This document shows positions 1 through 3,876 of a DNA stretch of 64,000 nt, in pieces. Below the pieces are notes generated by a model. That model made no database searches, had not been told where the DNA came from, and worked only from the letters and a program-made list of their open reading frames with translations. The position numbers were made by a program, and so were the translations under genes. Source of the stretch: Antarctobacter heliothermus (GTDB lineage Bacteria > Pseudomonadota > Alphaproteobacteria > Rhodobacterales > Rhodobacteraceae); the NCBI RefSeq assembly GCF_900188425.1, contig NZ_FZON01000005.1, forward strand, positions 62,001 to 126,000. Direction: 5' to 3'. How positions within the stretch are numbered: the stretch's first letter is position 1; each line of letters opens with the position of its first letter.

Positions 1-289
1 CCTGACTCTGGTTGAAGAGGATGGATTTTTCCGGATCGACGCCCGAGGCGATGAAGCCAGCGGTCAGTTCCCGCGTCTGGCGGCGCAGCGCATCCGGGTC
101 CTGCCAGACGGTGATCGCGTGCATGTCGACCATGCAATAGACCGACTGGACGCCTTGATCCTGGCTGTCGGCAAAACGCTTCAACGCGCCAAGATAGTTG
201 CCCAGCGTCAATCCGCCGGAGGGCTGGATGCCCGAGAAAACGCGCGGGGTGAAGGCGGAGTTGGGCTGGCCGTCTGACGTGTCTGACAT
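1..289 (-). CDS. trpS: Tryptophan--tRNA ligase, N-terminal part (runs off the left edge)
   Basis: Charges tRNA-Trp with tryptophan in the cytoplasm. The ATG is at 289 on the minus strand and 96 codons are visible before the window ends. Near the N-terminus the class I nucleotide-binding signature reads [14 protein letters not shown], the tryptophanyl-tRNA synthetase version of HIGH. It is followed by segments typical of the family (a [11 protein letters not shown] stretch, then [18 protein letters not shown] and GVDPEKS). The KMSKS loop lies outside the window. TrpRS next to murJ and glnD is a common arrangement in Rhodobacteraceae; here three other genes are interposed. Confidence 0.95.
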
Positions 290-369: not shown

Positions 370-1053
370 ATGACCCATCCCCATAACGAAGCCCCGGTCA
401 ACCCGCTGCCGCCGGTTGTGGTTGCGCTGTTCCTTGTGCTTGCGGTGATAGAGCTTGTGATCTGGCTGGGTGGGCAGGGGATTGTCGGCGGTCCGGCGGC
501 TGTCGGCTGGCGGACCGGGATGATCGAATCCTACGGATTTTCGGGGCGCGCCTTTGACTGGATGCTGGAGACCGGGCAATTCCCGCCAGAGCTGTTGGTG
601 CGCTTTGTCAGTTACCTGTTCCTGCACGCCAGTTTCAGCCATGCGCTGTTTGCCATGGTGATCCTGCTGGCCATGGGCAAGATCGTGACAGAGGCGCTGG
701 GATCGCTGGCCTTTGTGACGATCTTTTTCCTGTCGGGCATTGTCGGCGCGGTGGCATTTGGCGTGATCAGCGATGATCCTTGGCTGATCGGGGCGTTTCC
801 GTCGGTCTACGGGCTGATCGGCGGGTTTACCTTTTTGCTGTGGATGCGGTTGGGCACGGCCGGCGCAAACCAGTATCGGGCGTTTTCGCTGATCGGGATG
901 CTGTTGGCAGTGCAACTGGTGTTTGGCGTGTTTTTTGGCGGCACCAACGACTGGATCGCCGATATAGCGGGTTTCATTGTCGGGTTTGGACTGACGGTGG
1001 TTCTGGCCCCCGGCGGGACGGCTGGCGTGGTGGCGCGCATTCGGCGGCGCTGA
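370..1053 (+). CDS. Rhomboid-like membrane protein lacking the catalytic residues
   Basis: A 227-residue protein with about six hydrophobic segments and the rhomboid layout: a HASFSHALF segment like the HxxxxHxxxN region of TM2, a GAFPSVYGLIGG segment in the TM4 position, and IADIAGFIVG in the TM6 position. Against the GlpG pattern, the nucleophilic Ser of GxSG is Phe, the catalytic His of AHxxG is Asp, and the TM2 Asn is Ala. It is therefore probably an inactive rhomboid relative (iRhom- or derlin-like in principle) rather than a protease; that is inference from alignment by eye. The start ATG is preceded by a GAGG-type ribosome site. It converges with the next gene, leaving 19 bases between stop codons. 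Confidence 0.75.
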   Translation: MTHPHNEAPVNPLPPVVVALFLVLAVIELVIWLGGQGIVGGPAAVGWRTGMIESYGFSGRAFDWMLETGQFPPELLVRFVSYLFLHASFSHALFAMVILLAMGKIVTEALGSLAFVTIFFLSGIVGAVAFGVISDDPWLIGAFPSVYGLIGGFTFLLWMRLGTAGANQYRAFSLIGMLLAVQLVFGVFFGGTNDWIADIAGFIVGFGLTVVLAPGGTAGVVARIRRR

Positions 1054-1072: not shown

Positions 1073-2332
1073 CTAGAACAGGTCGTCCGGCAACCAGGAC
1101 CGAATGTGACGCGGGGCGGGCGTCTCCAGCGTCTCGCCCCGGGCGAGAGTGTCGCTGACATGCGCGTGCAGCGCCAGTGTCAGGTCCGGGTCACGCACCA
1201 GCACCATGGCCTCTGTGTTCCAGCGGCAGGCCCGGCGAGTCAGCGTGGCTGAGCCCAGAAAGGTCACATCGTCTATCAGACACAGTGTGGCGCTCTCGCA
1301 GGCGGTTGGATCGGCGCGGAGCGTCAGGCGCGGGCCATAGGCTGTCTGTAGCTCGCGCAGGACGGTGGCCTGTAGGGCGCTGGCGCGGGCATCGTCCCAT
1401 GTGTCCCGGGTGGCGGGCGGCAGCAGCAGCGTCACATCAGGGCCGTTGGGGGTTGCCGCCCCGGCCAGCGCCTGCGCCAGCCCGTCGTGGCGAAAGGCGG
1501 CGGTGCGGATCAGAACATGGCGGCGGGCTGACCGAAACAGACGGGACAGGGCCGCCTCGATGTCATCGGCAAGCGGGCGTGGGCCCAGGCCCCGTTGCGG
1601 TCGCGCAAGCGTGCGAAACAGGCGCAGATCTTCGCGGCTTTGCGGTCTGGCGTGGCAGGTGATGGGGGACAGGCGCGCGGCAAGGCTGGGCGCGCCGCTG
1701 GTGCGGGCGTCGGCCCAGGTATCGGCAAACTGTCCGCGCAGCGCGCCGCAGAAATCCGCGTCCTCGACCGCAAGGGCCAGAACGGCAGGGCCATCGGTGC
1801 CCAGATCCGGCCCACCGATCACTGCACGCAAACCATCGGCGATCGCGAAACTTTGCAGGATGTCGGCGGGGTGCGGGATTGCGCCAGCGGTCAGCAGGGT
1901 ACGCTGTACCGGTGTCAGGCTGGCGGGCACTTCGGCCCGGAGCGTGGCCAGCGCGGGTGCAATACGGTGGCGCAGGGCTCGGGCGCGCAGGCCCGTGGCA
2001 CGTTGGCCGTGGGTGGCGCAGACCAGTTGCGCCTCACCCTGCAACACATCTGCAAACCCCGACGCATGGGACCACGCCGAGCGGTGTCTGTCAGGTGCCA
2101 GCAATGGGTCGGTGTCCGCGATCAGGATGCGCAAGTCGATGCCCCGGCGCGACAGCAGTGCCAGCAGGTCGCTCCATGTCTCAAGCCCGCCATCGCGCAG
2201 CTCGGGCGTGAAGAGAGGCGCTGTTGGCGACAGCTGAGGCAGGCACAGCAGCAACTCCTCCGTCGCATTTGCGACAAGACGTTCCAGCGCGGCGGCGGCG
2301 TCGTTGGCGGAGAGCAGTGCGCGGGTGGTCAT
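1073..2332 (-). CDS. Phospholipase D-like protein with degenerate HKD motifs
   Basis: A 419-residue protein with the two-lobed phospholipase D/cardiolipin synthase layout. The first half ends in SFAIADGLRAVIGGPDLG, the place of an HxKxxxxD...GG.N motif; the second half has TLCLIDDVTFLGSATLTRRA followed by NTE, the place of the second motif. The His and Lys of both motifs are replaced although the flanking Asp, GS and N.E residues remain. Catalysis by the usual mechanism is therefore unlikely. The ATG overlaps the murJ stop codon (ATGA), so it is probably translated with murJ; I chose this start over a longer reading frame that runs into murJ. The link to murJ suggests an envelope role, which is inference only. 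Confidence 0.7.
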   Translation of the reverse strand: MTTRALLSANDAAAALERLVANATEELLLCLPQLSPTAPLFTPELRDGGLETWSDLLALLSRRGIDLRILIADTDPLLAPDRHRSAWSHASGFADVLQGEAQLVCATHGQRATGLRARALRHRIAPALATLRAEVPASLTPVQRTLLTAGAIPHPADILQSFAIADGLRAVIGGPDLGTDGPAVLALAVEDADFCGALRGQFADTWADARTSGAPSLAARLSPITCHARPQSREDLRLFRTLARPQRGLGPRPLADDIEAALSRLFRSARRHVLIRTAAFRHDGLAQALAGAATPNGPDVTLLLPPATRDTWDDARASALQATVLRELQTAYGPRLTLRADPTACESATLCLIDDVTFLGSATLTRRACRWNTEAMVLVRDPDLTLALHAHVSDTLARGETLETPAPRHIRSWLPDDLF

Positions 2333-3876
2333 GCGCGGGACCGCTTGAACATGGACTTGACCTCGGACAGGCGGAAAGCGCCCAGTGTCTGGCCCGCGAT
2401 CCCATAGACCAGTGCCCCAGACACGATCAGGCCAAACAGGACCGCAAAGCGCAGGTATGGAACGGCAAGCCATGGCGCGAGCAAGACGTTCAGCCCCCAG
2501 AGTGCCGCCCCCATCACGGCCGAGGCCGCACAGATGCGCCACAGACGGTTGCGAAAGCGGGTGTCAAAGCGGGCGACCTCTCCCATTTTTCGCGCACCTC
2601 GGGCCAATTGCCAGACCATGATCCAGCCCGCCAGCGTGGTGGCGATGGCGGGGGCCAACCAGCCGATAAAGGGTGACAGGCCGATGGCGATAGTGGCGTT
2701 GACCACCATGGCCCAGACGGCATAGCGGAACGGGCTGCGGGTGTCTTCGCGGGCAAAGTACAGCGGTTGCAGCACCTTTTGCAGCACAAAGGACGGCAGG
2801 CCCAGCCCGTAGATCGCCACCGCCGTGGCGATGGCGGCACTGTCGGCGGCGGTGGTCGCGCCCCGTTCGAACAGGACCGACACCAGCGGCAGCGGGATCA
2901 CCACCAGAGCCACGGACGACGGGATGGTCAGTGCAAGGCTGAGTTCGCCCGCTCGGGAAAAGGCAGCGCGCCCGCCGGTGTGATCCTCGGCCTTTAATCG
3001 GCGGGACAGGTCGGGCAGCAGAACGATGCCGACGGCAATGCCGACCACGCCAAGCGGCAACTGGTACAGGCGATCCGCGGCATACAGCCAGCCCACCGCC
3101 TTGTCGAAATGGCTGGCGACCTGCTGGCCGACCAGCAGGTTGATCTGCATGACGCCCCCCGCAAGGGCCGCAGGCAAGGCGATCACCACAAGGCGTTTCA
3201 TATCGGGCGTCCAACGCGGCAGGCCGGGGCGAATGCGCAGGCCGGAGCGTTCGGCGGCGACCCAGACCAGCGCCAGTTGCGCCATGCCTGCCACCGGAAC
3301 GGTCCAGATCAGCCATTGGATCACCTCGCCCCCCAGTGCCACGCCCAAGGCCATGGAGGCGCAGACAAGGATGTTGAGCAGAACCGGCGCGGCAGCGGCA
3401 GCGGCGAAATGCCCGGCGGTGTTCAATGCGCCGGAAAACAGCGCCGCCAGCGAGATCAGCAGGATGTAGGGAAAGACGATGCGGCCATAGCCCACCGTCA
3501 GGTCGAACCGCGCATCGCCATAAAAGCCGCCCGCCGTGGCCCAGACCAGCGCGGGCATAAAGATCATCGCCACAGCCGTCAGCCCCAAGAGCACTGTCGC
3601 CAACCCGTTAAAGGCGTCGCGGGCAAAGACCATCGGATGCTCTTCGCCTTCGTATTTCTTGGAGAACAGCGGCACAAAGGCGGCGTTGAATGCGCCCTCT
3701 GCGAAAAAGCGGCGGAACATGTTGGGCAGGCGGAAGGCGGCGACAAAGGCATCCATCACCGGGCCCGGACCGATCAGGCCAAGGATCAGGATTTCGCGCA
3801 CGACACCCAGGACCCTGCTCATCAGGGTCCAGAAACCGACGGTCATGACACCGGCGACAAGGCGGATGGGTTTCAT
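2329..3876 (-). CDS. murJ: Lipid II flippase MurJ (MviN family)
   Basis: Moves lipid II across the inner membrane for peptidoglycan assembly. The 515-residue protein has the family's repeated hydrophobic helices (about 14) and starts with a TVGFWTLMSRVLGVVREIL segment, the signature first helix with its conserved Arg. FVAAFRLPNMFRRFFAEGAF follows, the most conserved MurJ motif. Length is normal. The stop codon overlaps the start of the downstream phospholipase D-like gene. trpS and glnD lie on either side in the same orientation, a familiar alphaproteobacterial neighbourhood. Confidence 0.96.
   Translation of the reverse strand: MKPIRLVAGVMTVGFWTLMSRVLGVVREILILGLIGPGPVMDAFVAAFRLPNMFRRFFAEGAFNAAFVPLFSKKYEGEEHPMVFARDAFNGLATVLLGLTAVAMIFMPALVWATAGGFYGDARFDLTVGYGRIVFPYILLISLAALFSGALNTAGHFAAAAAAPVLLNILVCASMALGVALGGEVIQWLIWTVPVAGMAQLALVWVAAERSGLRIRPGLPRWTPDMKRLVVIALPAALAGGVMQINLLVGQQVASHFDKAVGWLYAADRLYQLPLGVVGIAVGIVLLPDLSRRLKAEDHTGGRAAFSRAGELSLALTIPSSVALVVIPLPLVSVLFERGATTAADSAAIATAVAIYGLGLPSFVLQKVLQPLYFAREDTRSPFRYAVWAMVVNATIAIGLSPFIGWLAPAIATTLAGWIMVWQLARGARKMGEVARFDTRFRNRLWRICAASAVMGAALWGLNVLLAPWLAVPYLRFAVLFGLIVSGALVYGIAGQTLGAFRLSEVKSMFKRSRA

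Follow-up and report, generated by a model that had tools for sequence, protein, structure and literature searches.

Rhomboid-family proteins without catalytic residues between murJ and trpS in Rhodobacteraceae

What becomes of an intramembrane protease once its catalytic residues are gone: does the gene decay, or does the protein take on another job? The question is raised by a gene of Antarctobacter heliothermus found in a stretch of 64,000 nucleotides, the whole of which is called the window here. The gene lies between murJ and trpS, both of which are on the opposite strand (Table 1), and the coordinates assigned to it in an earlier note on this DNA were exact. Its product scores 70.4 bits against the Pfam Rhomboid entry (PF01694), for which the cut-off is 22.6, and so belongs to the rhomboid superfamily. 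On the evidence presented below we are almost certain that it is a conserved, non-catalytic rhomboid.

Table 1. Features of the window, and the tandem rhomboid genes of genome G206 (locus L090)
Feature	Positions	Strand	Basis or remark
Pseudorhomboid gene	370–1053	+	Open reading frame with ATG start, 227 aa
Codon of A95 (GlpG N154 position)	652–654	+	Alignment with E. coli K-12 GlpG
Codons of F143-P144 (positions of GlpG catalytic S201 and of G202)	796–801	+	Same GlpG alignment
Codon of D198 (position of GlpG catalytic H254)	961–963	+	Alignment with E. coli K-12 GlpG
Start of trpS (tryptophan-tRNA ligase), divergent neighbour, cut by window end	2–289	-	Pfam and NCBIfam
Degenerate PLD-like gene, convergent with the rhomboid gene, ATGA overlap with murJ	1073–2332	-	PLDc_2, 46.7 bits
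murJ, lipid II flippase	2329–3876	-	PF03023, 315.1 bits; TIGR01695 above cut-off
Tandem rhomboid genes of G206	L090 4786–5559 and 5495–6199	-	Inactive and intact, between murJ and trpS

Catalytic positions in the window protein

In an alignment that includes E. coli K-12 GlpG, the GlpG residues H145, H150, N154 and G199 correspond to H86, H91, A95 and G141 of the window protein, and S201, G202, Y205 and H254 to F143, P144, Y147 and D198. The earlier note, aligning by eye, had proposed that the catalytic serine is replaced by phenylalanine, the catalytic histidine by aspartate and the TM2 asparagine by alanine, with the glycines preserved. The alignment bears this out at all three positions, and G141 and G151 are retained, as are the TM2 histidines. 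Every one of the residues by which a rhomboid protease is recognized, the TM4 serine, the TM6 histidine and the TM2 asparagine, is absent. When profiles of 32 inactive and 12 intact relatives were compared with hhalign the same register was obtained (99.9%, E = 5.8e-35, 200 columns), with GAFPSVYG opposite GASGAVFG and WIADIAGF opposite WEAHLGGF. Since the alignment with GlpG and the profile-profile register agree, the substitutions sit at the correct positions. With nucleophile, base and TM2 asparagine gone and an aromatic side chain in the place of the serine, we infer that the window protein is probably unable to cleave.

A shifted active site using the serine of FPSVYG, which the earlier note had given as an example of what would overturn its reading, is not supported: among 66 inactive relatives that column holds Gly in 22, Ala in 20, Pro in 15, Met in three and Ser in just two. 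No substitute Ser/His pair is conserved in the column counts for these 66 relatives, which speak of sequence columns and not of distances. Serine exceeds half in four other columns (34, 38, 42 and 43 of the 66, the last of which is Thr in the window protein), and the only histidine columns above half are those of H86 (56/66) and H91 (36/66), both of which are also found in intact rhomboids.

Structural evidence was of two kinds. A profile of 32 relatives matches GlpG structures, the best being 2nr9 at E = 1e-7; the window protein alone, compared with the PDB, has iRhom chains as its best matches, weakly (E = 0.011). An AlphaFold model, made from the window protein and six close relatives in an alignment, is weak (pLDDT 50.3, pTM 0.35) and was used, with the Foldseek results, for helix order only: it has six long helices in order, with 14 residues before the first and 51 between helices 15–35 and 87–110. 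GlpG structures were the top Foldseek matches of this low-confidence model (pLDDT 50), with E-values of only 0.17 and 0.49.

Two classes of rhomboid and a new signature

All loci fetched, from Rhodobacteraceae and from outside, yielded 183 distinct rhomboid frames, of which six were incomplete and set aside. The remaining 177 fall into two classes: 52 have Ser, His and Asn together with the TM2 histidine pair, and in 125 the His and the Asn are both missing. Absence of both the H254 histidine and the N154 asparagine is itself the definition of the inactive class, so that what counts as findings is the residues found in their stead and the gap that separates the two classes. No intermediates between the classes were seen among the 177, save for three of the 125 that keep the serine. 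Chance or a frame artefact can be rejected, as 125 distinct sequences share the same loss of His and Asn and 122 of them lack Ser too.

The replacements recur. At the S201 position the inactive sequences have Phe (77) or Tyr (39), 116 between them, and otherwise Met (3), Ser (3), Thr (2) or His (1); at G202, Pro is present in 121 of the 125; and at H254 there is Asp in 103 and Glu in 20, together 123, with single instances of Gln and Asn. At N154, Val or Ala occupies the position in 94 inactive sequences, and Asn does so in all 52 intact ones. The conservation of the substituted positions across Rhodobacteraceae, which the earlier note had put forward as a check, thus gives a positive result, and its reading of a bacterial pseudorhomboid is supported.

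The three sequences that keep Ser at S201 (L099, L104 and L196, as GSSP or GASP) have Asp or Asn in place of the histidine. L099 and L104 fall within the inactive clade of the rhomboid tree described below; L196 is absent from that tree and its genome groups with inactive ones. Their serine may have been regained.

A signature recurs in the inactive class, G-x-[FY]-P-x-x-Y-G at the old serine site and W-x-A-[DE]-x-x-G-F at the old histidine site. Across 66 inactive sequences E28, R48, G103, G141, G151 and G205 of the window protein are invariant, and R78 (62), P144 (62), K104 (56), T154 (55), Q182 (55) and D198 (49, with Glu in a further 15) are mostly kept. The latter six are rare or absent among 37 intact sequences, R78 being found in two of these and K104 in five. 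At the position of GlpG Y205, Tyr is present in 113/125 inactive sequences versus 4/52 intact ones, where Phe and Ser prevail; all 113 have Asp or Glu at the H254 position, and nine of the 125 have Phe in place of the Tyr. This pattern of conservation is of a new kind, beyond mere loss. We infer from the aligned residues that a Tyr–Asp/Glu contact may have replaced that of the old dyad: the conserved Tyr and the acidic residue would take over the contact between TM4 and TM6, so that the helix bundle is kept.

Might these residues rather carry out a new chemistry, or form an ion or lipid site, with the TM6 acidic residue and the TM4 tyrosine at its centre? The near-constancy of both residues fits such a role, as does the abundance of R78 and K104 relative to intact rhomboids. 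However, the old serine site is mostly filled by Phe, the tyrosine can itself give way to Phe, and the Pfam and NCBIfam family searches point to no known activity, so that we regard this explanation as improbable. We favour the structural contact.

The inactive rhomboid is under purifying selection. Its dN/dS is 0.129, 0.143, 0.163 and 0.194 in comparison with L034, L035, L036 and L039, respectively, and 0.364 with the more distant relative L038, the dS beside these values (0.76–1.04) being near saturation. With dS high across the compared genes (0.63–1.42), the corresponding figures are 0.103–0.206 for murJ and 0.274–0.599 for the PLD-like gene. The window protein therefore has the sequence marks of a rhomboid pseudoprotease: the core is kept, the catalytic residues are lost and the gene is retained by selection.

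Distribution and history of the locus

The window protein finds matches in 282 of 295 Rhodobacteraceae genomes in an evenly drawn sample. In an order-level search the profile of inactive sequences matches all 292 family genomes returned, from 113 genera, 288 of them at E ≤ 1e-40 and the other four (G365, G453, G101 and G167) more weakly; residues were read in the 30 best of the 292 matches and all 30 are inactive. The same profile matches 129 of 289 genomes in a class-level search, four of them Rhodobacteraceae and the rest at E = 4e-21 or worse. Alignment was possible for 25 of the best 26 loci outside the family (L154–L179), and every one of these carries the complete Ser, His and Asn set. 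A spread of the inactive form outside the family is thus not supported by the best matches.

Within the family the setting is regular. Flanks were read for 78 inactive copies, and among recognised genes the closest neighbours in 64 of them are murJ and trpS, one at each end and both encoded on the opposite strand; the remaining 14 have one of this pair. In all, trpS is the nearest on one side in 76, the scan having recognised murJ, trpS and rhomboids only, so that other genes, the PLD-like gene for example, may intervene. Intact rhomboids occupy the same place in the same direction in L100, L101, L103, L109, L198, L199 and L201, and adjoin murJ in L112 and trpS in L108. Outside the family, in 19 murJ loci from 20 hand-picked genomes that had a rhomboid match in the class-level search, a rhomboid is present in none and trpS is also present in 16 (about 3 kb away in L219).

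These data bear on whether the protein assists MurJ or the transport of peptidoglycan precursors, as partner or in quality control, which its recurrent neighbours in the 78 inactive copies would suggest. Against this, loci outside the family have murJ and trpS side by side with no rhomboid present, so that inherited position explains the adjacency; furthermore, the rhomboid gene is transcribed against murJ, and six genomes of the family have murJ and trpS with no rhomboid between. A dedicated link with MurJ is therefore a distinctly unlikely explanation.

The PLD-like gene is a separate matter. The earlier note had described it as degenerate and coupled to murJ, and had set it beside the rhomboid; the coupling is real, with an ATGA overlap at 2329–2332, but the gene looks unrelated to the rhomboid. 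It was detected in only 12 scanned loci, those of the window and its nearest relatives (L034–L037, L039, L041–L043 and L045–L047), where it lies between murJ and the rhomboid. Judged by eye in the alignment, L041, L042, L043 and L047 retain the two HxK motifs, which the remaining eight have lost. The HKD motifs are missing in the window and in L034–L037 and L039, and the set that has lost them includes Mameliella and Maliponia relatives. The match of the PLD-like gene to DrmC of the DISARM system scores 42.7, far below the family cut-off of 133. Because a PLD relative is found in 12 loci only, four of them with intact motifs, its decay looks to be later and local, and apparently an event separate from the rhomboid loss. 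A common cause in joint loss with the PLD gene was rejected on the same counts.

How old is the inactive state? A rhomboid tree of 103 rows, made with five key columns removed, places all 66 inactive rows, two of the sequences that keep the serine included, in one clade (SH-aLRT 100), which lies beside 19 intact rows and is not nested in the intact copies of the locus; 49 of the 100 forks of this tree are unresolved. A tree of MurJ and TrpS, rooted on 16 outside rows, has the eight intact-rhomboid genomes as an early grade and the other 67 family rows as a clade with support 98, the states of L188–L202 having been entered by hand, with the broken L190 and L202 set as inactive. L034, L036, L037 and L040, near or same copies, were left out of both trees. 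MurJ and GlnD together give the same branching order as MurJ and TrpS. The inactive state is an old, fixed character. Most simply, an intact rhomboid was inserted between murJ and trpS and afterwards changed, a single time, into the inactive form.

Gene loss, or a stage that preceded the insertion, may account for the six genomes of the family in which no rhomboid separates murJ from trpS (L229 and L231–L235). Three of the six loci cluster together on the inactive side of the MurJ and GlnD tree, L229 lies elsewhere on that side, and L233 and L234 are near the base. Four of the six are in genomes of 2.2–3.5 Mb. In six further genomes without a match absence is unsure, because the locus is at contig ends or murJ has no trpS beside it. 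Two copies at the locus are broken (L190 in G032 and L202 in G157) and one is a short piece (L115 in G167), through assembly error or decay.

Is the gene simply a decaying, functionless pseudogene? The broken and partial copies and the six loci with no gene are what such a reading would draw on. Against them stand dN/dS values of 0.13–0.19 to four near relatives, the recurring new signature and the strong matches in 288 of 292 genomes, and we find the idea scarcely credible. Kept as it is across most of the family, the protein probably has a job that does not involve protein cutting.

Other rhomboids and possible function

One genome, G206, holds both forms at the locus, the inactive one adjoining murJ and the intact one adjoining trpS, with the two oriented alike (Table 1), and has no Pfam rhomboid beyond this pair. 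No other scanned locus has two complete copies in tandem. The arrangement is in keeping with a duplication after which neither product was lost, but the intact copy may instead have been acquired from another source. The intact copy groups with intact copies of the family (support 82) and the genome itself is nested among inactive ones, which would call for several losses. Duplication and direct replacement at the locus are both candidate histories.

Among 64 genomes that carry the inactive gene, 61 have another Pfam rhomboid outside the locus, versus three of eight with an intact locus gene (Fisher p = 0.0002 with kinship ignored; p = 0.001 without one 76%-complete genome of the eight). Five genomes were left out of these counts, G209, which has a Ser-keeping copy and two further partial matches, G101, which has an intact copy beside trpS and no other rhomboid, and G167, G130 and G094; G105 is counted among the 64 by score alone and not by residues. 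The other rhomboids were for the most part counted irrespective of their catalytic state, and the difference is a hint that cutting at the locus may have become dispensable where another rhomboid is present. In G045 and G093, single-contig genomes that are 100 and 99% complete, the inactive protein is the only Pfam rhomboid, and therefore no rhomboid partner is needed there. Two more rhomboids are encoded in the genome of the window (L001 and L003; C75 and C122). Each has its Ser, His and Asn in place, and L001 shares a contig with the window gene, at a distance of about 73 kb.

iRhoms have a long cytosolic N-terminus and a large loop-1 domain. Like iRhom1/2, the window protein has a rhomboid core with lost catalytic residues, and iRhom chains are its best, if weak, single-sequence matches in the PDB. 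An iRhom-like regulator would act on an intact rhomboid of its own cell, either by binding or blocking the substrates of that rhomboid or by pairing with it. The second rhomboid in 61 of the 64 carrier genomes would be in keeping with that, as would the intact L001 and L003, but the inactive protein is alone in G045 and G093, and neither the long N-terminus nor the large loop-1 domain is present in a protein of 227 residues. The iRhom stretch aligned with GAFP of the window protein is GPAG, and the inactive clade was found here in one bacterial family only. Regulation of this kind we consider unlikely.

A comparison with the GlpG-type proteases (PF01694; E. coli and H. influenzae) shows what has been kept, namely the rhomboid core profile, the two TM2 histidines and the G199 and Y205 positions, in contrast to S201, H254, N154 and G202, all of which are replaced. 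The core is kept with no extra domains, and the activity it could still offer is therefore the binding of transmembrane segments. We accordingly favour, as a possibility falling somewhat short of probable, a client-binding membrane protein. It would bind transmembrane segments of other membrane proteins without proteolysis, and might then retain what it has bound or deliver it to FtsH or a similar processive protease, as with YqgP and the Derlins; FtsH is conjectured as the partner from this analogy. Since most such genomes hold another rhomboid elsewhere, catalytic function at the locus could probably decay freely. Taken as a whole, the explanation joining a non-catalytic protein, the Tyr–Asp contact, client binding and free decay of catalysis has in our view about an even chance of being right.

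The closest bacterial precedent is YqgP of Bacillus subtilis, a rhomboid with a demonstrated non-proteolytic role: protease-dead YqgP still presents MgtE to FtsH and needs a free active site and the N-terminal domain to do so (PMC7231995). YqgP differs in that it is proteolytically active, carries a metal-binding domain at its N-terminus and requires an open active site for its adaptor role. The analogy may fail, because the site is probably plugged in the window protein and no N-terminal domain is present. A plugged active site, which like the Tyr–Asp contact is predicted from the alignment to GlpG, would be a real difference from YqgP; the mode of binding could be another.

The Derlins of eukaryotic ERAD offer a second parallel, likened here by description only, in that they are non-cutting rhomboid-like proteins that handle membrane clients; the 2025 review that describes them so assigns inactive rhomboids chiefly to protein quality control and lays emphasis on membrane thinning (PMC12615303). 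They differ in being eukaryotic and in having other partners. Derlins recruit p97. Tentatively, and with rather less conviction than we attach to client binding itself, we suggest that most of the family may have replaced an intact locus rhomboid by a dedicated pseudoprotease, a client receptor for membrane-protein quality control that would have arisen independently of Derlins and iRhoms, with the G206 tandem as a surviving intermediate.

A 2011 paper on rhombosortase mentions pseudoproteases in eukaryotes (PMC3237569) and a mycobacterial survey finds catalytic residues in all its rhomboids (PMC2989971). Our literature search, in which subscription journals were thinly covered, so that absence from print is not established, found no paper on this clade or on any bacterial clade of inactive rhomboids. 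As far as the literature consulted goes, rhomboid pseudoproteases are eukaryotic, apart from the adaptor role of the active YqgP.

Genes of this sort are usually labelled as intramembrane serine proteases, and the present results suggest that such a label is misleading when applied to this clade. Because the proteins are small, some near relatives are culture-collection strains and intact relatives provide natural controls, a non-cutting role is directly testable in bacteria. A single bacterial family shows the candidate steps side by side, from no rhomboid through an intact one and, in one genome, a tandem to the fixed inactive form of most sampled genomes, and these loci therefore bear on the question of how a protease fold turns into a non-cutting membrane protein.
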